Part shown: piece after piece, positions 7,198 to 51,637 of the stretch
Position numbering within the stretch: position 1 is the first letter of the stretch
Layout: every line of letters starts with the position of its first letter
Assembly: GCA_947650915.1 (NCBI GenBank)
Contig: CANSWY010000001.1
Coordinates: 124,001-188,000 of the forward strand
Source: an uncultured Eggerthellaceae bacterium
Lineage (GTDB): Bacteria; Actinomycetota; Coriobacteriia; Coriobacteriales; Eggerthellaceae
Length of the DNA stretch: 64,000 nucleotides
Direction: 5' to 3'
Notes under the pieces: model-generated
The model's input: only the letters and a program-made list of their open reading frames with translations
What the model was told of the DNA's origin: nothing
The model's database searches: none
Position numbers and translations under genes: made by a program

Positions 7198-7487
7198 TGC
7201 AGCGAGACCCGCGCGAGGTGATCATCCGGCCGGTGATCACGGAACACTCTTACGACGTGATGGACAACAACGTCTACACGTTCGAGGTGGCCAAGGATTC
7301 CAACAAGATCGAGATCCGTCAGGCCATCGAAGCCATCTTCGGCGTGACCGTCAAGAAGGTCAACACGCTGAACGTGAAGCCGAAGCCCAAGCGCGTGCGC
7401 TATCAGAAGAAGGGCTACACGCGCACATGGAAAAAGGCCATGGTGACCTTGGCTGAGGGGGACACGATAGAGATCTTCTCTGCGTGA
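7197..7487 (+). CDS. rplW: 50S ribosomal protein L23
   Basis: Exit-tunnel rim protein, docking site for trigger factor and SRP; 96 residues. REVIIRPVITEHSYDVM and KPKPKRVRYQKKGYTRTWKKAMVTL are the family core. The ATG at 7197 is favoured over an upstream frame start at 7164 because it overlaps the rplD stop and has GAGGAGGTG 8 bases upstream. This is the last gene before a terminator, whereas rplB follows directly in almost all bacteria. Confidence 0.96.
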   Translation: MQRDPREVIIRPVITEHSYDVMDNNVYTFEVAKDSNKIEIRQAIEAIFGVTVKKVNTLNVKPKPKRVRYQKKGYTRTWKKAMVTLAEGDTIEIFSA

Positions 7488-7502
7488 GCCTGCTGGAGCT
7501 TC

Positions 7503-7532
7503 AAGGACCGGCACTTGTGCCGGTCCTTTTTT
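7503..7532 (+). terminator. Strong intrinsic terminator after rplW
   Basis: AAGGACCGGCAC (7503-7514) pairs perfectly with GTGCCGGTCCTT (7517-7528) over a 2-base loop and runs into T. It closes the first half of the S10 operon. Confidence 0.92.
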
Positions 7533-7559
7533 GTGCACTTCATGGATATCATGTGTGCA

Positions 7560-7588
7560 TCGAACAATGCGTGCGTGCCCACTATAAT
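7560..7588 (+). promoter_or_regulatory. Promoter of the lipoprotein gene
   Basis: A perfect TATAAT at 7583-7588, 36 bases before the ATG at 7624. The -35 match (TCGAAC, 7560-7565, 17-base spacing) is weak. Confidence 0.5.
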
Positions 7589-7623
7589 GACGTTCGCAAG
7601 GGACGAAGGAAGAAAGGTGCTCG

Positions 7624-8445
7624 ATGAAGAAGGTATTCGCTGCAGTTTGTTCGATGGCCCTCGTGTTCGGCTTGGCCGCGTGCGGGTCTCCTGCTGAGCA
7701 GCAGAGCGCGCCCGACAGTGCGCAGACCGTGGAGGGCCTCACTGATGAGGCGAGCGTGGCCAGGGCCCGTGAGCTCATGGAGCAACTGATCGCTGCTCCT
7801 ACCGTGGACAACATGACCGAGGTGGATGCGATCACCACTTCGACTGTCGAGAATGGCGATACATACAGCAACGTTTCGACGATCACGAGGATGCGGGATG
7901 TCTCCGATGGCTCTTCCAAGTTCTTCATCAAGACGGAGAGCGATCCAGCAGCTGACACGGATGCCGCATATTACATCGATGGCGTCGAAGGCGTCCTTGA
8001 GATCGGTGACGAGCGTCATGGCATCACGTTCGAAGAATCGTATGTCGACAGCCTGGTCAATCCTGAGGACAACAGCGAGCAGTACCGCGTCTACTACGAT
8101 TGCGCCAAGCAGATCTCTTACTACGAGCAGGACGGGACCGAGTATGTCATGATCGAGGTCGATCCTGTCAAGCTGATGGAGTCTGGCATCTTCGCCGATG
8201 CGTTCACTGACATCACGAGCTGCATTGCCGAATACACCTTCGATGTCAAGGGGAACTTGACCGCATTCATCAGCACGATCGAGGGCACCATGGCGGATGC
8301 TGAGGGCGCTCTATTTGAAGGCACCATCGAAACCAAGTGCCTCTTCACGGATTACGGCACTACGCAGGTTCCGGCTCTTCCTGAGGTCACCGAGGATGAG
8401 GCTGGCAACACAGAAGAGGCGGATGAGGATCAGTCTGGCGAATAG
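7624..8445 (+). CDS. Secreted lipoprotein of unknown function
   Basis: 273 residues. The first 20 form a lipoprotein signal peptide (MKKVF, hydrophobic core, LAAC lipobox with Cys20), so the protein should be anchored to the outer face of the membrane. The mature part is acidic and soluble-looking, without motifs I recognise; residues about 55-240 resemble the beta-rich DUF-type lipoproteins (LppX/LolA-like shape) only in general character. The last 20 residues are Glu-rich. GAAAGGTG precedes the ATG. It has its own promoter and a terminator placed inside the 3' end of the opposing lipid kinase gene. Confidence 0.7.
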   Translation: MKKVFAAVCSMALVFGLAACGSPAEQQSAPDSAQTVEGLTDEASVARARELMEQLIAAPTVDNMTEVDAITTSTVENGDTYSNVSTITRMRDVSDGSSKFFIKTESDPAADTDAAYYIDGVEGVLEIGDERHGITFEESYVDSLVNPEDNSEQYRVYYDCAKQISYYEQDGTEYVMIEVDPVKLMESGIFADAFTDITSCIAEYTFDVKGNLTAFISTIEGTMADAEGALFEGTIETKCLFTDYGTTQVPALPEVTEDEAGNTEEADEDQSGE

Positions 8446-8447
8446 CG

Positions 8448-9431
8448 TCAGTTCTGATCTTCGCGTCCACCGAGAGGCTCGCGCATGCGGGCCTCTTCTT
8501 TTTGGCGCGGGGAATGCAGGGGGAACAGCACGTGAAGGGCGCTGTGCTCTACGTGCGCTTCGAAATGTGTCCCTCCAATGGCTTCCCCGTCCATCTGCGC
8601 GGGCGGAGCTGCATCAAAATCAAGGATGAGCGATGGTGCCGTGTGGAATGAAAGCTCGCGCATGCTGGTGTGCTTGCCCGCTTTCGCGCGCAGGAAGGCG
8701 AAGGAGGCCTTCGCCCGGCTGATGGGCGGGTGGGAGATGCAGAGGTTGAACAGACCGTCATCCAGCTTCGCATCAGGGCAGATCTCGAATCCGCTGCCGT
8801 AATAAGGTCCGTTCTGCACGGCGAAGGTGATGGATTCTCCGTGCAGGGGTTCGCCATCATCCAGGCGGAGTTCGTACCGATAGGCGGTGAAGCTGTGCTT
8901 CAATTGGTGCGCAGCGCTGGCCCCGTAGAGCAACGTGCCTTTCTGTCCTGTGCGCACGCGTCGCTCCACCGTGTCCAAAGCGATGGCTGCATCAAGTCCG
9001 AATGAGAGCGTCTCCATGAACCAGTGCCCGTTCACTCGACCGATGTCAGTGGGCATGCTGGACGCGGTGCAGATGGCCTTGCAGGCGCGCTTGACGCCTT
9101 TCGGCATTCCCAAGGACTTGGCGAAGTCATTGCCGGAGCCGGTGGGGATGACGCCCAGCTGCGGGCGCTGCTCTTTCGGCAACTGCATCAAGCCGTTCAC
9201 GGTCTCATGCACAAGCCCATCACCCCCTAACGCGATGACGGTGTCGAAGGCGGCGGCATCTGCAGCCAGCTCGGTGGCATGATGGGGGTGCGTGGTCAGG
9301 ATGACTTCGATGGAGGCGTCCGTCATGCGCCTGAAGAGCGTTTCCATGGCCTCTTCAGCCAAGCGCGCCCCATTGCCGTTCTGCGAGGCCGGGTTGGCGA
9401 TCAAGAGGATGTTCTCCAGCTGGGTGCGCAC
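8448..9431 (-). CDS. Diacylglycerol kinase family lipid kinase
   Basis: 327 residues of the DagK/YegS family, which phosphorylates diacylglycerol or related lipids at the membrane. Visible motifs: ILLIANPASQNG at the N-terminus, LGGDGLVHETVNGL (the GGDG nucleotide motif) and GVIPTGSGNDFAKSLG. A longer reading starts at ATG 9446, but its first codons contain AAAGGAG, which makes a good ribosome binding site 5 bases ahead of GTG 9431; I prefer the GTG. Convergent with the lipoprotein gene (2-base gap) and divergent from the ABC genes. Substrate unproven. Confidence 0.85.
   Translation of the reverse strand: MRTQLENILLIANPASQNGNGARLAEEAMETLFRRMTDASIEVILTTHPHHATELAADAAAFDTVIALGGDGLVHETVNGLMQLPKEQRPQLGVIPTGSGNDFAKSLGMPKGVKRACKAICTASSMPTDIGRVNGHWFMETLSFGLDAAIALDTVERRVRTGQKGTLLYGASAAHQLKHSFTAYRYELRLDDGEPLHGESITFAVQNGPYYGSGFEICPDAKLDDGLFNLCISHPPISRAKASFAFLRAKAGKHTSMRELSFHTAPSLILDFDAAPPAQMDGEAIGGTHFEAHVEHSALHVLFPLHSPRQKEEARMREPLGGREDQN
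8473..8503 (+). terminator. Terminator of the lipoprotein gene inside the opposing kinase gene
   Basis: AGAGGC (8473-8478) plus three further pairs close on GCGGGCCTCT (to 8496) with loop GCAT and are followed by TCTTTTT. It lies wholly within the 3' coding end of the minus-strand lipid kinase. Confidence 0.7.
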
Positions 9432-9533
9432 GACGTCTCCTTTCATGCTCAGATGCGATTAGGCTATCATGAGATGAATGGAAGGTGCAGCTTTCCCTGG
9501 AGGACGATGCTGTATCGTTGATGGGAGCGGCGC

Positions 9534-10235
9534 ATGGCATTCGTTGAGTTCAAGGACGTGTCCAAGACATACCGGATGGGCGAAGTGGAGGTGCATGCCG
9601 TCCACGACATGTCTTTCGAGATAGAGCAGGGTGAATTCGTGGCCATCGTGGGTCCATCGGGTGCGGGAAAGACCACGTTGCTCAACATGCTGGGCGGCAT
9701 GGACAGCTGCACCAGCGGCACCATCAAGCTGGACGGGGATGTGGTGAGCGCTTACGATGCGAAACAGCTTACCATGTATCGACGCTATGACATCGGGTTC
9801 GTGTTCCAGTTCTACAATCTGGTGCAGAACCTGACTGCGCGCGAGAACGTGGAGTTGGCAAGCCAGATCTGCAAGGATCCGCTGGATGTGGATCAGGTGT
9901 TGGATGACGTGGGGCTTGCGGAGCGCAAAGGCAATTTCCCCGGGCAGCTATCAGGAGGAGAGCAGCAGCGCGTGGCCATTGCCCGCGCGCTGGCGAAGAA
10001 CCCGAAGCTGCTGCTTTGTGATGAACCCACGGGTGCATTGGATTACCGCACGGGCAAGGCCATCATCAAGCTATTGCAAGACACCTGCCAAAGCTCGGGC
10101 AAGACCGTCATCATGGTCACGCATAATACGGATTTCTGCGCCATCGCGAACCGGGTCATCCATGTGCGTGAAGGAAGCGTGGCAGCAGTGGAGCTCAATG
10201 GAGATCCTGCATCAGCTGAAACGCTCAAGTGGTAG
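9534..10235 (+). CDS. ABC transporter ATP-binding protein (MacB/LolD type)
   Basis: 233-residue ATPase subunit. [12 protein letters not shown] (Walker A), Q-loop in [27 protein letters not shown] (signature), [12 protein letters not shown] (Walker B) and H-loop TH in MVTHNTD. The YNL after the Q-loop and the signature sequence are typical of MacB/LolD/FtsE-like ATPases that work with FtsX-fold permeases, which fits the next gene, 24 bases on. Such pairs act as mechanotransmitters or export lipids, peptides or drugs rather than import. Confidence 0.93.
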
Positions 10236-10259
10236 TGGGATGTGCGTGAGGGCTGTCCC

Positions 10260-13200
10260 ATGAGAAGCGCGTTCAACACCGATATCCGCCGCTCCATCAC
10301 TGGTTCCTGGGGACGTTTCTTGGCCATCGTGGGCATCGTGGCGTTGGGGTGCGGGTTCTATGCAGGGCTCCGCATGACGGCCCCTGACATGCACGGCGCG
10401 GCGGATGCCTATTACGACGAGACATCCCTCATGGACATCCGCGTGGTGTCCACCCTTGGTCTCACCGATGCTGATCTGGAAGCGCTGCGCCAGGTGGACG
10501 GCGTCGAAGAAGTGGAAGGCGCATTCGAAATGGATGCCATGGTCACTCTGAATGACGAGCAATATGCTGTGCGCATCCATTCGATGCCCTACGAGGCGCG
10601 TGGGTCGGATCGGATGGATGAGAGCATGGTCATGGTGCCCGAAATGGACGCAGGCGCGCTGAACGAGCTCTTGCTGGTGGAGGGCCGTTGGCCCACGGCG
10701 TCCGATGAGTGCATCATCTCAGCTGACAACGTGATGAATTCGCCAGTATCGCTGGGAGATGGGATCTCTGTGGACGAAGGCGTCCAGGATCTTGATGGGA
10801 TACTGCGTGAACGCACGTTCAAGGTGGTGGGATTCGCTCATTCTCCCTACTACGTGTCCACCACTGCCATGGGGTCCACTGCGCTCGGTTCGGGCACCAT
10901 CGAACAGTTCATGTATGTTCCAGCGAACGCCTTCTCTTCTGATCTGCCCTTTACCGAGGCCTTCATCAAGGTGGAGGGTGCAAAGGGCGAGCTTGCGGGT
11001 TCGATGGCGTATCAAGCGCGCGTGGATGGGGTGGTGAAAGAGCTGGAGGGCATCTCCTCTGATCGGGAAGACGCTCGTCTAGCTGAGGTGAAGGCTGAGG
11101 CGCAACGGACGCTCGAAGAGAATCGTCAGGAATACCTCGCGGGGCGTGCTGACGCTGAGGCGCAGTTGAACGAAGCGCAGCAGAAACTGGATGACGCTTC
11201 GGCTGAGATCGAATCGAGCCGGGCGAAGATCGCCAGCGGCCAAGGGGAATACGATTCTGGAGTCCAGCAGCTTGTTCGCGAACGTGCGTCTGCAGAGCGG
11301 CAGCTTGCGGATGCGGAGGAGCTGCTGAATGAGAGGCAAGCGCAGCTCGATGCCTCTGGCGCGCAGCTTGAAGGATCGGCAGCGCGCTTGGAAGCTGGTT
11401 GGGCAGCAGCAGGCTTGACTGCGGCAACGGCTCCAGCAGCAGCGGAGGGACTGAAGGCGCAGTTGGCTGCTCTGGATCCAACAGCCCCGGACTACGCTGA
11501 ACGAGCGTCAGCGCTCCAGGCGCAGATCGCTCAGATAGAAACGCTCATGCAGTCTCAGGCAGCATTGGATGCAGGCTGGGCCCAACATGACGCGGCGTCA
11601 GCTCAGATTGCTGCAGGACGCCAGGAGCTGGCAGTCCAGCGTCAAGAGATCCAAGCGCAGCTGGCCGCAGCCCAGTGCAAGTTGGATGCTGTCAAGGCTC
11701 AGCTCCAAAGCGCGCGGGCGCAGCTTGCCGATGGCGAAGCGGAGCGCAGGGACGGTCAAGCGGAATACGATGCTGAGCATGCGCGCGCTCAAGATGAGTT
11801 CGCGGATGCCGAGCGAAAGCTTGCTGAGGCGCAGGCGAAGATCGAGGACATCAAGAAGCCTGAATGGCTCATCATGGATCGCACGAAGAATCCGGGCGTG
11901 GTCAGCTTCGAATCCGATGCGGATCGGGTGGACTCCATCGCATCGTTCTTCCCGTTCATCTTCTTCTTGGTTGCAGCGCTCGTCGCTCTCACCACCATGA
12001 CGCGCATGGTAGAGGAAGAGCGCGTGCTCATCGGCACGTTCAAGGCGCTCGGCTACTCGCGGGCGCGCATCACTTCCAAGTACCTCATCTATGCTACAGT
12101 GGCGTCCGTCGCAGGTGCCGTGATCGGCGTCGTGGCCATGGCGCTCATCTTGCCGCCCATCATCATGGAAGCCTATGCCATCATCTACAGCGTTCCCCAC
12201 GGCATCCTCATGCCCATCGATCCGGGCATCGCGCTCAGCGCCGCTGGGCTCGGCGTAGGGGTGACGCTCATCGCTACCTGGGCTGCTGTGGCCAGCACCC
12301 TTCGCGAATCGCCAGCGCAGCTCATGTTGCCGCGCGCTCCCAAGCAGGGCAAGCGCATCCTGCTGGAGCGCATCGGGCCACTGTGGCGGCATCTTTCCTT
12401 CTCATGGAAGGTCACCTGCCGCAACATCTTCCGCTACAAGAAGCGCTTGGTGATGACGGTCATCGGCATAGCGGGATGCACGGGCCTTCTGCTCACGGGA
12501 CTGGGCTTGTCCGACGCCGTCAACGATATCATCGACAAGCAGTATGGTGAGACGGTGCTCTACAACGTGATCGTCGATGGGGACGATGACCTCTCAGATG
12601 ATTCCAGGGATGAGCTGGTCTCCCTTGCAGGGACGCATGCTTTTGCGCAGGTGGACACCATGATGGCTTCTGGCCCTGAGAGATCCGATGCATCAGTCTC
12701 TGTGGTCACGCCCGAAGATGCCCAGGAGTTCCAGAAGCTCTGGGCCATGCGCACGCGCGTGGGGCATGAGCCGCTTTCTTTGGGGGGCGATGGCGTCATC
12801 ATCACGGAGAAGCTCGCGAACCTCTTGGGGCTGGCTGTGGGAGACAACCTCACATTGGCTGAGCAGGATTCCATGGGCAATGCGACGAGCACCACATACG
12901 GCCTGGAGATCACGGGCATCATGGAGAATTATGTGGCGAACTACGTGTTCCTTGGCGCTGATGTCTATGCGGATACGTTCGGGAATGCGCCTGATGCGAA
13001 GACGATGTATGCAGAGGTGCCTGATGGGGAAGGAGAGCACCAGGCCTTCCGTGATGCAGCAGCCCAGATTCCGGGTGTGAAGACCGTCGCCTTCAACAAC
13101 GAGGTCATAAGCACCTACCGCAGCATGCTCAAGAGCGTGAACATGATCGTGGTGGTGCTGGTGGTGGCTGCGGCAGCGTTGGCATTCATCGTGCTCTACA

Positions 13201-13538
13201 ACCTGACGAACATCAACATCACCGAACGCGCGCGGGAGATCGCCACGCTGAAAGTGCTGGGCTTCACGCCGCATGAAGTGGATATGTACATTTACCGGGA
13301 GACCATCATCTTGACGGTGCTGGGTGCGCTCCTCGGCCTCATCTTCGGCGTGGTGCTGGAGGGCTTCGTCATCGTGACGGCTGAGGTGGATTACGTGATG
13401 TTCGGACGGGACATCCATCTTTTGAGCTTCGTCATGGCGTTCGCTGTCACCATCCTGTTCGCCGTGGTGGTGATGCTCACCATGCGCCGCAAACTGGCCA
13501 ACATCAACATGATCGAAAGCCTCAAATCCATCGAATAG
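10260..13538 (+). CDS. FtsX-like ABC permease with long extracytoplasmic coiled coil
   Basis: 1092 residues from ATG 10260 (GTGAGGG 8 bases upstream; GTG 10242 is an alternative). One membrane segment near residue 20 (FLAIVGIVALGCGFYAGL), a globular outer domain, then about residues 265-540 of heptad-like, Ala/Gln/Glu-rich coiled coil, a first FtsX bundle of three membrane helices (from FFPFIFFLVAALVALTTM), a further membrane start at VMTVIGIAGCTGLLLTG, a second outer domain, and a C-terminal FtsX bundle (MIVVVLVVAAAALAFIVLYN, LGALLGLIFGVVLEGFVI). This is the two-FtsX-domain type; the coiled coil probably reaches across the cell wall. Partner of the ATPase just upstream. Cargo unknown. Confidence 0.88.
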   Translation: MRSAFNTDIRRSITGSWGRFLAIVGIVALGCGFYAGLRMTAPDMHGAADAYYDETSLMDIRVVSTLGLTDADLEALRQVDGVEEVEGAFEMDAMVTLNDEQYAVRIHSMPYEARGSDRMDESMVMVPEMDAGALNELLLVEGRWPTASDECIISADNVMNSPVSLGDGISVDEGVQDLDGILRERTFKVVGFAHSPYYVSTTAMGSTALGSGTIEQFMYVPANAFSSDLPFTEAFIKVEGAKGELAGSMAYQARVDGVVKELEGISSDREDARLAEVKAEAQRTLEENRQEYLAGRADAEAQLNEAQQKLDDASAEIESSRAKIASGQGEYDSGVQQLVRERASAERQLADAEELLNERQAQLDASGAQLEGSAARLEAGWAAAGLTAATAPAAAEGLKAQLAALDPTAPDYAERASALQAQIAQIETLMQSQAALDAGWAQHDAASAQIAAGRQELAVQRQEIQAQLAAAQCKLDAVKAQLQSARAQLADGEAERRDGQAEYDAEHARAQDEFADAERKLAEAQAKIEDIKKPEWLIMDRTKNPGVVSFESDADRVDSIASFFPFIFFLVAALVALTTMTRMVEEERVLIGTFKALGYSRARITSKYLIYATVASVAGAVIGVVAMALILPPIIMEAYAIIYSVPHGILMPIDPGIALSAAGLGVGVTLIATWAAVASTLRESPAQLMLPRAPKQGKRILLERIGPLWRHLSFSWKVTCRNIFRYKKRLVMTVIGIAGCTGLLLTGLGLSDAVNDIIDKQYGETVLYNVIVDGDDDLSDDSRDELVSLAGTHAFAQVDTMMASGPERSDASVSVVTPEDAQEFQKLWAMRTRVGHEPLSLGGDGVIITEKLANLLGLAVGDNLTLAEQDSMGNATSTTYGLEITGIMENYVANYVFLGADVYADTFGNAPDAKTMYAEVPDGEGEHQAFRDAAAQIPGVKTVAFNNEVISTYRSMLKSVNMIVVVLVVAAAALAFIVLYNLTNINITERAREIATLKVLGFTPHEVDMYIYRETIILTVLGALLGLIFGVVLEGFVIVTAEVDYVMFGRDIHLLSFVMAFAVTILFAVVVMLTMRRKLANINMIESLKSIE

Positions 13539-13847
13539 CGTGCGCCATGTCTTCGTGGGTGCGCATACTTCGTATGCGCACCCGTGCCCGAGAAAAGGAA
13601 GCCCATGCGAAGACCACGCACGGGCACATGGTTTCAATAACGGCCTTACGGCCACCTGACGGTGTCCGAACGGCCTACGCGGGCTTCCGCCCGCGTGGTG
13701 GATGAGCAAAGCAAGTTTGCTCATCCACGGATTCAACCTGACATCTCTTCTGTTTGACTTGGCTCTTTACGCGTCAAATGTCGCGAAGCCCTTCGGGCCT
13801 CACTCCATTTGGCGAAGCGCTCCCGCGCCCAAAATTCGCACGTCCTT
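13539..13847. repeat. Hairpin-rich spacer after the ABC permease
   Basis: No gene is supportable here. Three strong inverted repeats lie in line: GGGTGCGCATAC with GTATGCGCACCC (13557-13583, 12-base arms, 3-base loop), CGCGGGC with GCCCGCG (13678-13695, loop TTCC) and GTGGATGAGCAAA with TTTGCTCATCCAC (13698-13728, 13-base arms). None has a clear T-run, so they look like repeated hairpin elements rather than simple terminators. The short open frame over 13702-13947 is repeat-derived. Confidence 0.7.
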
Positions 13848-13904
13848 CGTAGCGCAGGCTTTAGCCTGCGACTGTTGCAGGCAAAGGCTAAAGCCTTTGC
13901 TACG
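13848..13904. repeat. REP pair, head to head, left of the RAYT gene
   Basis: First unit 13848-13871: CGTAGC, then GCAGGCT-TT-AGCCTGC. Second unit 13881-13904 is the same design inverted: GCAAAGGCT-AA-AGCCTTTGC followed by TACG. Read in the same direction the two share the CGTAGC head but differ in the stem (GCAGGCT versus AAAGGCT), like the two REP types of a BIME. Confidence 0.85.
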
Positions 13905-13943
13905 GATCATCCTGCCACAGCAATTGCTTTTTAGATCGCATGG

Positions 13944-14465
13944 TTAATCCGACCAAGCGTTTTTCGTAGCGCAGGCTTCAGCCTGCGAAATGCCCGAGGC
14001 GTTCATGCAATCCAATTCCCAACGGAGGGGATTGTTCTCAATGTATTCATACAGCCGGTCGTGATCCTGCTGGTTGCGTACGATATGGTCATGGAAGCTG
14101 GGCTGCCAGATCGCTCCGCTGATCCCGTGCGCATGGCATTCGATGGATGTTGCCGCTTTGATGGATCGAATGACCTTGCTGAGGGAGGGAGCACGTTCGC
14201 TGCTGATGCGGATGAGCAGATGGACATGGTTCGGCATGATGACGAAGCGTTCTATGCCGCAGGCTGCCTGCGCACGAATGATTCCAACACAGATGACCCC
14301 TGCCTTTGAGAGGATCATCTCGCCTGATTCGATATGCCCCAGCATCTCTTTGCGCTCATGCGTGCAGAACGTGACGAAATACGTTCCGGGGGTTGAATAA
14401 TCCCACCCTTGCAATCGTCTCTTGTGCGTTCGATATCTGATGTTGCGCCTCTTCCTGTCGGACAA
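13944..14465 (-). CDS. REP-associated tyrosine transposase (RAYT, Y1/HUH family)
   Basis: 173-residue single-strand DNA transposase-like protein. Visible: the N-terminal YRTHKRRLQGWDYSTPGTYF and VTFCTHERKEMLG typical of RAYTs, the HUH motif in VIMPNHVHLLI, and the C-terminal YEYIENNPLRWELD containing the catalytic Tyr and NP turn. RAYTs nick and join REP hairpins in vitro in other bacteria. The start is TTG at 14465 and lies inside the arm of a REP hairpin; the last dozen codons (AEACATKNAWSD) are themselves translated REP sequence. No terminal repeats of an IS are seen, as expected for RAYTs. The gene appears intact. The start is uncertain because no clear ribosome binding site precedes it. 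Confidence 0.9.
   Translation of the reverse strand: MSDRKRRNIRYRTHKRRLQGWDYSTPGTYFVTFCTHERKEMLGHIESGEMILSKAGVICVGIIRAQAACGIERFVIMPNHVHLLIRISSERAPSLSKVIRSIKAATSIECHAHGISGAIWQPSFHDHIVRNQQDHDRLYEYIENNPLRWELDCMNASGISQAEACATKNAWSD
13965..13988. repeat. REP unit overlapping the 3' end of the RAYT gene
   Basis: CGTAGC followed by GCAGGCT-TC-AGCCTGC. It encodes part of the transposase C-terminus on the minus strand. One loop base differs from the unit at 13848. Confidence 0.85.
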
Positions 14466-14526
14466 AGGCTGAAGCCTTTGCTACGGATCAACCTGATGCT
14501 CTTCGTAGCGCAGGCTTCAGCCTGCG
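14464..14526. repeat. REP pair at the 5' end of the RAYT gene
   Basis: Unit 14464-14485: AAAGGCT-GA-AGCCTTT then GCTACG (minus-reading type). Unit 14504-14526: CGTAGC then GCAGGCT-TC-AGCCTGC. Together with 13848-13904 and 13965-13988 the transposase gene is bracketed on both sides by both REP types. Confidence 0.85.
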
Positions 14527-14647
14527 AAATCTTTCGGCTCACGGTATCACCCAGAAACCCGAACGCAAGACTGGCATCCAGGCGCCAGATGTGCATCAGA
14601 TGCCTTGCCCGTGCCACGCATTGCAGATGACAGCCTGATCTGCAGCG

Positions 14648-14670
14648 CAGGTCTTCAGACCTGTTAGAAT
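14648..14670 (+). promoter_or_regulatory. Diverged REP-like hairpin fused to a -10 box
   Basis: GCAGCG precedes CAGGTCT-TC-AGACCTG (14648-14663), the REP layout with one extra base per arm, and TAGAAT follows at 14665-14670, 57 bases before the trigger-factor-like gene. No convincing -35 box is seen. Confidence 0.45.
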
Positions 14671-14726
14671 GCAACGCGAAAAGAGAGGGGCACGGGTGCG
14701 TGCCGGGCAAGCAACAGGAGAGGCCG

Positions 14727-16073
14727 ATGAAGGTCAAGCAGATCAAGAAAGACGGAGACAAGGTCACGCTGGAAGCGGTGGCCACCGCACAAGAAACGGC
14801 TCAGGCCATGCAATCCGCCAAGATGGCGTTCGCGCAGTCCATGGGCATGAAGCCGCCGGCGCAGGGGCAGACCCTTGAGCAGGCTGCTGAGGAGCAGATG
14901 GGCATCAAGAACCTGGATTCCATCGTGGAGGCATCCGCCATGGATGCGCTCGCCCCGCTGGCAGTGGACAAGAAAGGCGTGACGCCGTCGTATCCGCCCC
15001 GTGCGAAAGCGAAAGGCTCCTTCAAGCCGAACGAGGAGTTCCGTTTCGAAGTGGAAGTGGAGTTGAAGCCGGAATATGAGCTCACCTCGTATGAGCCCGT
15101 CAAGATCCAGGTGCCTCCGTTCCAGATGAACGAATCCATCGTGGACAAGCAGATCCAAGAGATGGCTGAGCGCTACACGGCGTACGTGGATGATCCTGAC
15201 GTCCCGGCGGACCGCGTGGTGGAGAAGGGTGACCACATCAGGCTCGCCATGGAGGCGCGCGAGGGCGATAAGGAGCTCAAGGGCCTCTCTACGAAGGGAC
15301 GCACGTACACGGCGGGGCAAGGCTACATGCCGGACGGGTTCGAAGAGCAGATCTTGGGCATGAAGGTGGGCGAGATCAAGGAATTCACCTTCGAGGGACC
15401 GGATTTCGATGAGAACATGAACGAGCGCACCCAGACGGTGGACGCCAAGGTCACCATCCTCGCGTTCGAGAAAGAGCACACCCCTGTTATCGATGATGAG
15501 TGGGTCAAGACCAACATGCCCATGTACAAGGGGTTGGATGACCTGCGCGCTGACATCGGCAAGAGCCTTGAGCGCCAGGCGCGCATGGAGTACGACGGCT
15601 ACGTGCGCCAAGCCGCTGCAGCGGAGCTGGCCACGCGCTTCCAAGGCAAGATCGCAGACGAGGTGTACGAGCACATGCGGGAGCAGATGCTCACCAACAT
15701 CCGCATGGATCTGCAGCAGCAGGGCATGACGTGGGATCAGTTCGTGGAGCAGAACGGCGGGGAGCAGCAGTTCGGCATGATGCTCATGCTGCAGGTGCGC
15801 CAGATGCTCACCCAGGGTTTCGCACTGGATGCCTATTTCCGGCACAAGGGCATGTCCATCAACGAAGAGGATCTGGTGGAGGCGTGCCGCGCCATGAACC
15901 CGCAAATGAACCCGAAGCAGATGATCAAGCAGGCAGAAGCCTCAGGCCACATGTTCGCACTGCGCGAATCGGCTGAGCGCCTGAAGGCGAACAATGACCT
16001 GGTGGCGCAAGCTGAGATTGAAGTGGTGGATCCGGCTGCTCCGGCGTCTGCGGGAGATGCGTCAGAGAATTGA
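14727..16073 (+). CDS. Trigger-factor-like protein without the ribosome-docking signature
   Basis: 448 residues. The segment FRFEVEVELKPEYELTSYEP matches the end of the trigger factor N-domain, followed by an FKBP-type domain (GDHIRLAM, GQGYMPDGFEEQILGMKVGE) and a long helical C-terminal domain (SVA1-like chaperone arms) to residue 448. The GFRKGK ribosome-binding signature expected near residue 40 is missing and replaced by an Ala/Met/Gln-rich stretch. It could be a ribosome-independent foldase or a highly diverged trigger factor. AGGAGAGG at 14716-14723 fixes the ATG at 14727. The stop overlaps the next gene (TGATG). Confidence 0.75.
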   Translation: MKVKQIKKDGDKVTLEAVATAQETAQAMQSAKMAFAQSMGMKPPAQGQTLEQAAEEQMGIKNLDSIVEASAMDALAPLAVDKKGVTPSYPPRAKAKGSFKPNEEFRFEVEVELKPEYELTSYEPVKIQVPPFQMNESIVDKQIQEMAERYTAYVDDPDVPADRVVEKGDHIRLAMEAREGDKELKGLSTKGRTYTAGQGYMPDGFEEQILGMKVGEIKEFTFEGPDFDENMNERTQTVDAKVTILAFEKEHTPVIDDEWVKTNMPMYKGLDDLRADIGKSLERQARMEYDGYVRQAAAAELATRFQGKIADEVYEHMREQMLTNIRMDLQQQGMTWDQFVEQNGGEQQFGMMLMLQVRQMLTQGFALDAYFRHKGMSINEEDLVEACRAMNPQMNPKQMIKQAEASGHMFALRESAERLKANNDLVAQAEIEVVDPAAPASAGDASEN

Positions 16074-17869
16074 TGGAGCCGCACGGCTTTCTGCCTGCGA
16101 GCGCGCAAGAGATGCGCGCGGCGGGGTGGGAGCAGCCTGACTTCGTGTACGTGACGGGGGATGCCTACGTGGACCATCCCTCGTTCGGCACGGCCATCAT
16201 CAGCCGCTTGCTGGAACGCGAGGGCTACAAGGTGGCCATCTTGGCCCAGCCCGATTGGAAAGACCCGGGGTCCGTGGAGGAGTTCGGCGAACCCCGGTTG
16301 GGCTTCCTGGTGTCAGCGGGCAACATGGATTCCATGGTCAACCACTTCACGGTGGCGAAGAAGCGCCGTCGCAAGGACGCCTATTCGCCGGGTGGCGTGA
16401 TGGGCGAGCGCCCTGACCGAGCGGTCATCACGTACTGTCAGATGATTCGGAAAGCCTATCCGGATGCGCCCATCATCATCGGGGGCATCGAAGCGTCCTT
16501 GCGCCGCCTTGCGCACTACGATTACTGGTCGGATCGGCTCATGCCGTCCATCTTGCTCGGTTCAGGGGCCGACCTCATCTCCTATGGGATGGGGGAGCGC
16601 TCCATCGTGGAGGTGGCCGATGCGCTGAACGCGGGGCTTTCCGTGCATGATCTCACGTTCATAGATGGCACGGTGTTCCGCACGGATTCGCTGGAGCATG
16701 TCTATGACCATGAACTGCTCCCTTCTTGGGATGAGCTTTCTGGCGAAGACGGCAAGCAGGCGCATGCCAGAAGCTTCGCCGTGCAGTATGCCAACTCCGA
16801 TCCCGTGAGCGGCAAGCGACTCGTAGAGCCCTATGGGAATGGCTACGTGGTGCAGAACCCGCCCGCGGCGGCCCTCACCACCTCTGAGATGGATGCAGTC
16901 TATCGCCTGCCTTACATGCGCATGTGGCACCCGTCCTATGACGAGGCGGGCGGCATCCCGGCGCTCAAAGAAGTGGAGTTCTCTCTGGCCAGCAGCCGCG
17001 GCTGCTTCGGGGAATGCTCCTTCTGTGCGCTCACCTTCCATCAAGGGCGGCATGTGAGCGCGCGCAGTCACGAGTCCGTGATGGAGGAGGCGCAGCTGCT
17101 GGCGGAACGTCCGGGCTTCAAGGGCTACATCCATGACGTGGGCGGCCCTACGGCGAACTTCACCCAGAACGCGTGTCCGAAGGTCGCGGAGTCAGGGGCG
17201 TGCACGTCCAGGCGCTGTTTGGGCACTAACCCCTGCAAGAACCTCCAGGCGGACGAGCGAGGCTACACCGCGCTTTTGCGGAAGCTCCGGGAGTTGCCGG
17301 GTGTCAAGAAGGTCTTCGTTCGCTCGGGCGTGCGCTATGACTATGCGCTCTTGGATGAGGACCCCGCATTCTTGGAGGAGCTCATCACCCATCATGTGTC
17401 AGGCCAGCTGAAAGTGGCGCCAGAACACGTGTCTGATGATGTCTTGAAGCTCATGGGCAAGCCTGAGGTGGGCGTCTTCAAGCGGTTCGCCCAGCGCTTC
17501 CGCGAGATATCGAAGCGTGCGGGCAAGAAGCAGTACCTGGTGCCCTACCTCATGTCATCGCATCCCGGGTCAACGCTCGCAGACGCCATAGAGCTGGCGG
17601 AATTCGTGCGCGACATGGGATACAACCCGGAACAGGTGCAGGATTTCTATCCCACGCCGGGCACGCTCTCCACCGCCATGTATTTCACTGGCATCCGTCC
17701 TCTGACCGGGGAGAAGGTCTTCGTGCCGAAGTCCCCGCATGAAAAGGCCATGCAGCGCGCTCTCATCCAATACCGCAACCCCAAGAACGCGCGTTTGGTG
17801 CGGGAGGCTCTGAAGCGCGCCCACCGGGAGGATCTCATCGGGCGTGGCCCCAAGTGCCTGGTCAAGTGA
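16073..17869 (+). CDS. YgiQ family radical SAM protein
   Basis: 598 residues. N-terminal cobalamin-binding-like region (DFVYVTGDAYVDHPSFG, IIIGGIEASLRRLAHYDYWSD), then the radical SAM core with SSRGCFGECSFCAL (CxxxCxxC cluster ligands, about residues 307-314), a Cys-rich segment TQNACPKVAESGACTSRRC, and the C-terminal YgiQ region with TPGTLSTAMYFTG. The reaction is unknown for the family. Translation probably couples to the preceding gene through TGATG. Its 3' end carries the -35 region of the rplB promoter. Confidence 0.92.
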   Translation: MEPHGFLPASAQEMRAAGWEQPDFVYVTGDAYVDHPSFGTAIISRLLEREGYKVAILAQPDWKDPGSVEEFGEPRLGFLVSAGNMDSMVNHFTVAKKRRRKDAYSPGGVMGERPDRAVITYCQMIRKAYPDAPIIIGGIEASLRRLAHYDYWSDRLMPSILLGSGADLISYGMGERSIVEVADALNAGLSVHDLTFIDGTVFRTDSLEHVYDHELLPSWDELSGEDGKQAHARSFAVQYANSDPVSGKRLVEPYGNGYVVQNPPAAALTTSEMDAVYRLPYMRMWHPSYDEAGGIPALKEVEFSLASSRGCFGECSFCALTFHQGRHVSARSHESVMEEAQLLAERPGFKGYIHDVGGPTANFTQNACPKVAESGACTSRRCLGTNPCKNLQADERGYTALLRKLRELPGVKKVFVRSGVRYDYALLDEDPAFLEELITHHVSGQLKVAPEHVSDDVLKLMGKPEVGVFKRFAQRFREISKRAGKKQYLVPYLMSSHPGSTLADAIELAEFVRDMGYNPEQVQDFYPTPGTLSTAMYFTGIRPLTGEKVFVPKSPHEKAMQRALIQYRNPKNARLVREALKRAHREDLIGRGPKCLVK

Positions 17870-17883
17870 AGCCGTCAGTGTGA

Positions 17884-18064
17884 TAGAATTCTCGCTTGCG
17901 TCTGTGCGTCTATGGACACACCCGGACGCGTGGTAAGGCGGAGTCGCAGGCAGGAGCCTCCATCCTGTGTGCCAGGCCATCGTCTTTCCACGGTATGCAG
18001 GAAGGCCTTTGGAGTGCGGAGAGGCGCGCCATCAAGGGCCGAAGAAGTCAGAGAGGTTGTTTGG
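17884..18064 (+). promoter_or_regulatory. rplB promoter -10 box and long leader
   Basis: TAGAAT at 17884-17889, 15 bases after the ygiQ stop; the -35 (TGGTCA at 17859-17864) is weak. If this is used, rplB has an untranslated leader of about 170 bases ending with GAGAGG at 18051-18056. No gene is seen in the leader. Confidence 0.5.
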
Positions 18065-18895
18065 ATGGGAGTCAAGCAGTACAAGCCGACGAGCCCAGGC
18101 CGACGCTTCCAGACGGTTTCCGATTTCGAGGAGATCACCACCTCGAAGCCTGAGAAATCGCTGTTGGCGAAGAAGCCGAACAAGGCTGGTCGCAACAACA
18201 ACGGGCGCATCACCACGCGCCACAAGGGTGGCGGGGTCAAGCGCCGTTACCGCATCATCGATTTCAAGCGCGACAAGGATGGCGTGCCCGCGAAGGTGGC
18301 CACCATCGAATACGATCCGAACCGCTCAGCGCGCATCGCGCTTCTGCATTACGCGGACGGTGAGAAGCGCTACATCATCCACCCCAAGGGCCTCAAGGTG
18401 GGCGACACCATCATGAGCGGTCCGGGGTCGGACATCAAGCCGGGCAACGCCATGCCGTTGGAGAGCATTCCCGTGGGCACGCTGGTGCACTGCGTGGAGC
18501 TGCAGCCGGGCAAAGGCGCTTCCATGGCCCGTTCTGCCGGCACGTCCATCCAGCTGATGGGCAAGGAGGGCAAGTACGCCATCCTGCGCATGCCCTCTTC
18601 TGAGATGCGCCGCGTGCTGCTCACCTGTCGTGCCACGGTGGGTGAAGTGGGCAACGCGGAACACTCCAACATCAAGATCGGCAAGGCCGGCCGCAACCGT
18701 TGGCGCGGCATCCGTCCCACCGTCCGCGGCACCGTCATGAACCCGGTGGACCATCCGCACGGCGGCGGCGAAGGCAAGAACAAGACGTCCGGCCGTCATC
18801 CGGTCACGCCGTGGGGCGTTCCCACCAAGGGCCATCGCACCCGCAACAAGAAGAAGGCGTCCAGCCGCCTGATCATCCGCCGTCGCAGGAAATAG
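18065..18895 (+). CDS. rplB: 50S ribosomal protein L2
   Basis: Peptidyl-transferase-centre protein; 276 residues. [15 protein letters not shown] start, [16 protein letters not shown], and the universally conserved [13 protein letters not shown] loop with its essential His. The ATG at 18065 has GAGAGG 8 bases upstream; the frame continues 51 codons further upstream without L2 sequence. It restarts the S10 order 10.6 kb after rplW. Confidence 0.97.
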
Positions 18896-49777: not shown

Positions 49778-51637
49778 ATGCCAACGACTGAGGACATGAC
49801 CGAACAGGCGCCGTCGCATACCGCGGTGGAAGAGCCTGTCAAGAAGACGCGCGCTGCCCGTGCCAAGAAGGCTGAGGCGGAGAGCGCGGAAGCGGAAGCG
49901 CCGAAGAAGCGCACGCGCGCGAAAGCCTCTGACGAGGCCAGCGCGGAAGAGAAGCCCAAGCGCCGTCCTGGGCGTCCGAAGAAATCCGAAGCCGAGGCTT
50001 CCGCCTCTGAAGCGGATGCGCCCGAAGCGGCCTCTGGCTCAGAGTCGATCGAAGAGAAGCCTGCGCGCAAGCCCGGACGTCCGCGCAAAGCGAAGGCTGA
50101 AGAACAGGAGGCTGCCGAAGCGCCTGAAGCGGCAGCCGCTGAAGCCTCTGACGCCAGCGTCTCCAAGGAGCCTGCTGAAGAAGCGGATCAGCCTGAGCGC
50201 CGCCGTCCGCGGCAGCGCCAGACGGACCATCGCGCCAACAACCAGGACCGCAACGGCCGCAACAGCAACAGCAACCGCCATGGCAACGGCCGGAACAACC
50301 AGCATCGCACGCGCCGTGAGCGCAACAACCGACAGCGCGAATACGCGCCCAGCGTGAGCAAGGAAGAGCTGGAGGCATGCAAGCTGCCGGAGCTTCGTGA
50401 GAAGGCGGCTGAGCTGAAGATTGATGCTTCCGGCTTGCGCAAAGCGGAGATGATCGACGCCATCTATGAGGCGGTGTGCATCGCAGAGGGCTTCGTGGAG
50501 GTGGAGGGCATCCTGGACATCCTGCAGGACGGTTACGGCTTCCTGCGCACCAAAGGCTACCTTCCCAGCGAACAGGACGTCTATGTGGGCCTTTCCACCA
50601 TCCGCCGCAACGGCCTCCGCAAAGGGGACATGGTGGCCGGCCAGACGCGCCCGGCGCGCGAGGGCGAGAAGTTCGCGGCCATCCAGAAGGTGACCAGCGT
50701 GAACGGCATGCCCGTGGACGAGCTTCCCAGCCGCCCCAAGTTCTCCGAGCTCACTCCGGTCTTCCCGGATGAGCGCTTGTCCATGGAGCACGGCAAGGAC
50801 ACGCTCACCGCGCGCGTGATCGACCTGGTGTCTCCCATCGGCAAGGGCCAGCGCGGTCTGATCGTGTCGCCGCCGAAGGCGGGCAAGACCACGGTCTTGA
50901 AGGACATCGCGGCGGCCATCCATGCCAACAACCCGGAAGTGCACCTCATGTGCCTGCTGGTGGATGAGCGCCCTGAAGAGGTCACGGACATGGAGCGTTC
51001 CATCCATGGCGAGGTCATCTCCTCCACCTTCGACATGCCCTCTGACAATCACATCGCGGTGGCGGAACTGGTGATAGAGCGGGCGAAGAGGCTGGTGGAA
51101 CAGGGGGAGGACGTGGTCATCCTGTTGGACTCCATCACGCGCCTGGCGCGCGCCTACAATCTGGCGCAGCCGGCATCCGGCCGCATCCTTTCCGGCGGCG
51201 TGGATTCCACGGCGCTCTACCCGCCCAAGCGCTTCTTGGGCGCTGCGCGCAACATCGAAGGGGGAGGGTCGCTCACCATCCTGGCATCTGCGCTGGTGGA
51301 CACCGGGTCGAAGATGGATGAGGTCATCTTCGAGGAGTTCAAGGGCACCGGCAACATGGAGCTGCGGCTTGACCGCAACCTGGCTGACCGCCGCATCTTC
51401 CCGGCCATCGACCCCATCACCTCCGGCACGCGCAAAGAAGACCTCCTGATGGATCCGCAAGAGGCGCCGCTGATCTGGGCGGTGAGGCGGATCTTGGCCA
51501 ATATGAACAACACGGAGAAATCCATGGACATGCTGATCAAGTCCTTGAAGCGCACGGAGACGAACCAGGAGTTCATCCTGCGCACCGCCAAGCGCGCTCA
51601 GAACCAGAGCCGCTTCGATGAGAACGGTGAGCTGTGA
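49778..51637 (+). CDS. rho: Transcription termination factor Rho with AT-hook-like N-terminus
   Basis: 619 residues against about 420 in E. coli. Residues 1-190 are an added low-complexity region: acidic/basic Ala-rich with two AT-hook-like motifs (RRPGRPKK at 62-69, RKPGRPRK at 97-104), then an Asn/Arg-rich stretch 141-188. Then a Rho_N helical domain (about 197-232), RNA-binding cold-shock fold (GYGFLRTKGYLP), and the hexameric ATPase: SPPKAGKTTVLKD (Walker A), VDERPEEVTDM, VVILLDSITRLARAYN, and Q/R-loop AFKGTGNM-like EEFKGTGNMELRLDR. ATG 49778 abuts the preceding stop; ATG 49796 is possible. Confidence 0.96.
   Translation: MPTTEDMTEQAPSHTAVEEPVKKTRAARAKKAEAESAEAEAPKKRTRAKASDEASAEEKPKRRPGRPKKSEAEASASEADAPEAASGSESIEEKPARKPGRPRKAKAEEQEAAEAPEAAAAEASDASVSKEPAEEADQPERRRPRQRQTDHRANNQDRNGRNSNSNRHGNGRNNQHRTRRERNNRQREYAPSVSKEELEACKLPELREKAAELKIDASGLRKAEMIDAIYEAVCIAEGFVEVEGILDILQDGYGFLRTKGYLPSEQDVYVGLSTIRRNGLRKGDMVAGQTRPAREGEKFAAIQKVTSVNGMPVDELPSRPKFSELTPVFPDERLSMEHGKDTLTARVIDLVSPIGKGQRGLIVSPPKAGKTTVLKDIAAAIHANNPEVHLMCLLVDERPEEVTDMERSIHGEVISSTFDMPSDNHIAVAELVIERAKRLVEQGEDVVILLDSITRLARAYNLAQPASGRILSGGVDSTALYPPKRFLGAARNIEGGGSLTILASALVDTGSKMDEVIFEEFKGTGNMELRLDRNLADRRIFPAIDPITSGTRKEDLLMDPQEAPLIWAVRRILANMNNTEKSMDMLIKSLKRTETNQEFILRTAKRAQNQSRFDENGEL

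Follow-up and report, generated by a model that had tools for sequence, protein, structure and literature searches.

In subclass 2.4 of the TnpA-REP proteins, genes with the motifs NH[IFV]H, WQ and YIxNNP are flanked by inverted GTAG-headed REPs and occur in scattered phyla. REPs located inside the gene, between HUH and Y and merged with it in frame, were reported as a unique feature of this subclass (Quentin et al., 2018; PMC6006769). Such merging is frequent though not obligatory there, and subclass REPs are either long, with three G-C pairs at the base of the stem, or of the double-foot form. For the TnpA-REP of the E. coli REPtron, the residues in contact with GTAG are W94, Q95, R104, E100/D, and H101 (PMC6006769), and its BIMEs combine Y and Z REPs as two subtypes paired head-out. 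The REPINs of Pseudomonas consist of two head-out REPs with a short spacer, lie between genes, and are accompanied by a single-copy RAYT (PMC3116915).

In this work, a RAYT gene and its REP hairpins were analysed in a stretch of 64,000 nucleotides (the window) from an uncultured Eggerthellaceae bacterium. The locus resembles subclass 2.4 in the NHVH, WQ, and YIxNNP motifs, in its inverted flanking GTAG REPs, in the in-frame merging of REP and gene and in the scattered phyla of its relatives, but its REPs are found at both coding ends and not between HUH and Y, and REPs A and B have no 3' foot (they are not of the 'double foot' form). With the E. coli system (TnpA-REP, 4er8) it has in common the GTAG head, the W/Q/R readers, the fold, and two REP subtypes paired head-out, whereas E. 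coli has DHLH and longer, bulged stems in place of the perfect 8-bp stems with 2-nt loops seen here. The Pseudomonas arrangement is also repeated, although the halves of a pair in the present genome usually differ in stem (A with B) and one pair in the window has the RAYT gene as its spacer. We consider it very probable that the locus is a REPtron, i.e., a subclass 2.4 RAYT gene with its cognate GTAG-headed REP hairpins. The support at the sequence level comes from the catalytic residues, the architecture and abundance of the REPs, the covariation of their stems, and their restriction to this genome among those searched. The features of the locus are as follows:

13944..14465, - strand: RAYT gene, 173 aa, TTG start (Y1_Tnp, NF047646, alignment, 4er8 fold match)
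13848-13870, + strand: REP A, left half of a REPIN
13882-13904, - strand: REP B, right half of the REPIN
13848..13904, no strand: REPIN (REP A + REP B), heads outward, 11-nt spacer
13965..13987, + strand: REP A at the RAYT 3' end, encoding residues 161-167 on the - strand
14463..14485, - strand: REP B at the RAYT 5' end, with AAAGG, the TTG start, and the upstream in-frame stop in its GTAG head
14504..14526, + strand: single REP A, its head toward the head of the REP B at 14463-14485
13965..14485, no strand: head-out A...B unit of 521 bp, with the RAYT gene as spacer

The 173-codon frame at 13944-14465 (-) is matched by Pfam Y1_Tnp (E 5.2e-10) and reaches 84.8 bits with NF047646, the curated NCBIfam model of REP-associated tyrosine transposases (cut-off 80). 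By sequence, it was matched best in the PDB (E 1.2e-6) by 4er8, in which TnpA-REP of E. coli is bound to a REP hairpin. The same structure was the best Foldseek match of the AlphaFold model (mean pLDDT 85.8) and ranked first in VIA-align (Z 12.9, 127 residues, 2.9 A, ~26% identity), with the IS608 and ISDra2 transposases after it (Z 11-12). The HUH motif N79-H80-V-H82 (NHVH), W120-Q121, and the catalytic tyrosine Y141 in YIENNP were identified in the protein, and N79/H80/H82, W120, Y141, and N145-P146 are invariant in 32 sequences (the RAYT and 31 relatives). Moreover, WQPSFHDHIVR aligns with WQPRFWEHAIR of 4er8, in which W120, Q121, and R130 correspond to the GTAG-reading residues of E. coli. 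The original prediction would have fallen with a defect of the catalytic Tyr; in the alignment and in the comparison with 4er8, the HUH motif, the tyrosine, and the GTAG-reading residues are all intact. By its motifs (NHVH, WQ, and YIENNP), the window protein would belong to subclass 2.4, which reportedly corresponds to RAYT group 4 of Bertels et al. 2017.

Homologues of the RAYT were found in many phyla, the best with ~40% identity and with gut Clostridia genomes leading. The statement that REPtrons are best known from Proteobacteria therefore understates their spread, since this subclass is known from many phyla. For a gut Clostridia origin of the gene there is no more than a hint, because the window protein had no supported neighbour in a tree of 34 RAYT proteins. 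The codon score of the gene was low (12.6 for the called 471-base frame vs 229 over 1374 bases for the neighbouring trigger-factor gene) under a codon-usage model for which 38 genes of the window served as training set (38/38 recovered). A foreign gene or a weakly expressed one could have such a low score. There is a single full copy of this RAYT in its genome.

Five perfect matches to the pattern CGTAGC-NN-AGGCT-NN-AGCCT-NN-G surround or overlap the RAYT gene at 13848-14526, and the chance level from window shuffles was 0.12 matches per window at <=3 mismatches. Each REP has 23 nt, in which CGTAG precedes a stem of 8 bp that is closed by a 2-nt loop. Two stem types are present, A (CGCAGGCT/AGCCTGCG) and B (CAAAGGCT/AGCCTTTG); the base of the stem has three G-C pairs in REP A (CGC/GCG), and REP B lacks them (CAA/TTG). 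Both types were found to the left and to the right of the gene, in agreement with the prediction of a RAYT gene bracketed by its own REP hairpins with both stem types on each side. As single-stranded DNA, the REPIN at 13848-13904 forms one long hairpin (z -5.1, 0/200 shuffles). The REP A at 13965-13987 forms a DNA hairpin of -8.6 kcal/mol and the REP B at 14463-14485 one of -6.1 kcal/mol as DNA and -8.3 kcal/mol as RNA. The 521-bp unit that encloses the gene has the same A/B head-out order as the short REPINs of this genome. Two further matches were rejected as REPs: the one at 13970 is the palindrome of a REP read backwards, and the one at 49987 is a chance match within a gene.

Throughout the 1.98-Mb genome, the REP pattern was matched 86 times at <=2 mismatches vs 4 times for the reversed control. 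Each of 59 relatives had <=3 matches, no more than the reversed pattern gave in the same genome, and the family is specific to its own genome among those searched. Genome stretches fetched around the matches gave 81 distinct REPs, only 9 of which lie in called genes although the same stretches are 82% coding; clustered REPs are not independent, so a binomial significance for 9/81 is overstated. The genome-wide copy check proposed with the original prediction hence yielded ~80 further REPs, and these avoid genes and in many cases form A/B pairs (REPINs). The setting of the REPs between genes is mostly same-strand or convergent. The consensus pattern is fitted exactly by 63 REPs, and in 59 of these 63 both of the variable positions in the stem can pair (shuffles: mean 22, max 37). 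Clusters hold 55 of the REPs, with neighbours arranged head-out in 16 pairs, head-to-head in 10, and in tandem in 6; half of the head-out pairs (8/16) have a spacer of 4-5 nt. The dinucleotide CT starts three bases before CGTAG in 25/81 REPs, compared with a mean of 5.4 further upstream. CT is the cut site of group 2 and 3 TnpA-REPs (PMC8266576), and its position at -3 is at most suggestive of a cleavage site. Another peak of CT, on the downstream side, coincides with the partner REP and was for this reason not considered.

The ends of the RAYT coding region consist partly of REP sequence. At the 5' end, the TTG start (14465-14463) is the final three bases of a type-B REP, as had been predicted for the start codon. 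The TAG of the GTAG head of this REP is an in-frame stop six codons upstream of TTG, no ATG or GTG was found between that stop and TTG, and the next TTG is codon 18, where a start would lose the invariant R17. The predicted start therefore lies inside REP B, barring a rare start codon such as ATC. The 5' arm of the same REP carries a Shine-Dalgarno-like AAAGG nine bases ahead of TTG, and in the hairpin AAAGG and TTG sit on opposite arms of one stem. At the 3' end, the REP A at 13965-13987 encodes residues 161-167 (QAEACAT). The claim that a REP encodes the last dozen residues was slightly generous, as the final six (KNAWSD) are located beyond the REP. The 161-167 tail was modelled with pLDDT of about 47-54, and the conserved core of the relatives stops before it. 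The fusion of REPs to both coding ends is thus real, but the emphasis placed on it is weakened, because it was reported for the subclass (PMC6006769) and recurs in the relatives.

In 84% of 87 relatives' RAYT loci, GT[AG]G-headed hairpins were found <=400 bp from the frame vs 9-13% for three control heads. By comparing 77 of the relatives' loci, a REP was located inside the gene in 45, over the stop codon in 10, and no further than 60 bases from the end of the coding region, within it, in 4; where the stop is covered, the TAG of GTAG is often the stop itself. From these counts it follows that REP-RAYT merging is common in this RAYT group, which agrees with PMC6006769. The window RAYT has no REP at the usual in-gene site between HUH and Y, and the REPs occupy both coding ends instead.

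Of the three RAYTs in the genome, two are intact and the other is broken, and the REP stem is a different one for each. The second intact frame (G000:C1 ~219240-219760; L169 = G000:C1:217000-222000, local ~2240-2760) has 38% identity to the window RAYT over the matched part, and its REP, GTAGGGCAGGGGCTTGCCCCTGCC (also denoted GTAGGGCAGGGGC), occurs in about a dozen copies, one of them inside its own gene. The reading of G000:C1:219277-219807 as a broken RAYT with an in-frame TGA was rejected, since it is an intact ORF that ends before the REP-coded tail of the query. The third RAYT (G000:C18:3207-3685) is interrupted by stops and has GTGG-headed hairpins on its flanks, of which there are about a dozen copies genome-wide. 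A related GTGG-headed double-foot hairpin (GTGGATGAGCAAAGCAAGTTTGCTCATCCAC), of a REP family distinct from A/B, is present in the window at 13698-13728.

In the congener G001 (genome 91% complete), the search with the window RAYT found no match, and yet ~30 hairpins are present there that have the GTAG head but other stems, in the same frame, GTAG[CT]GCAGxxCTTCAGxxCTGC. REPs can therefore, as judged from this pair of genomes, apparently persist after the loss of a RAYT or exist where none is detected. This speaks against the REPtron reading, as does the mostly solitary occurrence of the type-C hairpins described below. At the position of the RAYT interval, G001 has an MFS transporter gene and thus offers no clean empty site. 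Shortly before the trigger-factor gene of the window there is a hairpin at 14642-14664 (GCAGCGCAGGTCTTCAGACCTGT), to which a hairpin at the equivalent position in G001 (GGAGCGCAGATCTTCAGATCTGC) corresponds. The two differ by a compensatory base-pair change, and in G001 the stem is that of a dispersed GTAG-headed family.

By analogy with the E. coli and Stenotrophomonas enzymes, we hypothesize that the RAYT would bind single-stranded REP through the GTAG head and the stem-loop, nick at a nearby CT via Tyr141 with a 5'-phosphotyrosine link, and rejoin the strands, so that REPINs could be copied or moved in trans in their single-stranded state. The RAYT gene has remained single-copy, whereas its REPs have multiplied. 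The gene itself fills the spacer of a REP A/B unit, and its ends are for this reason REP sequence.

The same HUH-Y1 fold and inverted hairpins enclosing the gene could also be expected from an autonomous insertion sequence of the IS200/IS605 type with hairpin ends, whose MITEs would then be the dispersed repeats. However, the RAYT scored 30.1 bits under the IS200 model, below the cut-off of 55, and only one full copy is present in the genome. The GTAG heads and the RAYT-type residues also argue against such an element, as do the dispersed units, which are bare hairpins and not deleted copies with remnants of the gene. This explanation is very improbable. We regard as hardly likely at all that the hairpins serve the host in transcription termination or mRNA stability, have nothing to do with the RAYT and lie beside it by chance. 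REPs in other systems do act on RNA, and the location between genes in mostly same-strand or convergent setting would suit such a function; on the other hand, five REPs within 680 bp at the RAYT, the absence of these hairpins from the relatives and the recurrence of the GTAG head at RAYT loci across phyla speak against it. A secondary RNA role of the REP hairpins may nevertheless exist.

There is some, if low, likelihood that the RAYT is a relic, formerly active and now non-working, with the REPs as its remnants. Its atypical codon usage, the clearly broken state of another RAYT in the same genome and the scattered mismatches among the REP copies would fit a relic, but the frame is open, the protein has all the residues that are invariant in the 32-sequence alignment, and 63 REPs fit the consensus pattern exactly. 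The REPtron with a subclass 2.4 RAYT thus remains our preferred explanation.

A plausible side effect of the REPtron arrangement would be low translation, with the 5' REP pairing AAAGG and TTG in one mRNA stem. Lowering of transposase translation by mRNA structure is known for IS200 (work cited in PMC8450116). For the RAYT it stays a conjecture because, on RNA folding of the start region in an 81-nt context, the hairpin was in the centroid, but the total energy was no better than that of shuffles. In an extended form of this idea, which we consider quite unlikely, the RAYT would be the cargo of its own REPIN and also its own regulator, with the 5' REP serving both as DNA cleavage substrate and as an mRNA hairpin that masks the start. 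If true, it would mean that the expression of the enzyme and its mobility hang on one sequence and that REP evolution would not uncouple them.

A REPtron with a subclass 2.4 RAYT is already a known kind, and the merging of REP and gene has already been reported; less expected are the RAYT as spacer of a head-out A/B pair and the 5' REP that pairs AAAGG with the start codon. There was no mention of Actinobacteria in the text searched of surveys of REPs and RAYTs, a literature search that joined RAYT or REP with Actinobacteria or Coriobacteria found nothing relevant, and the text of PMC6006769 makes no mention of the host lineage. A well-marked REPtron is thereby added from a lineage absent from the REP/RAYT surveys searched. 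Moreover, the genome offers a compact natural test case for how RAYTs and REPs co-evolve and how REPs merge with the gene that spreads them, because there are three RAYTs with their own stems here, and in G001 the stems are changed and this kind of RAYT was not detected.

The RAYT gene lies in an interruption of the ribosomal S10 operon between rplW (ends 7487) and rplB (starts 18065), and the gap 7487-18065 in the window holds transporter, lipid-kinase, trigger-factor, and YgiQ genes. The same rplW/rplB break was found in G001 as well as in further genera of the family in which this RAYT had no match; it is filled by ABC transporter, FtsX-type permease, trigger-factor, and YgiQ genes in varying combinations. 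The break is thus unrelated to the RAYT, and the REPtron was rejected as the cause of the split. The original prediction was correct in placing the gene inside a split ribosomal operon, but the weight given to this position is reduced. The trigger-factor gene of the window (14730-16073) has several diverged paralogues in the same genome and in relatives, with ~five matches per genome in several. Another group of hairpins in the genome, type C (GAAGGCT/AGCCTTC; L162, L154, L158, L152), is mostly solitary and lies within a longer conserved repeat, the downstream consensus of which is near ACCCGGAACGCGCTT.
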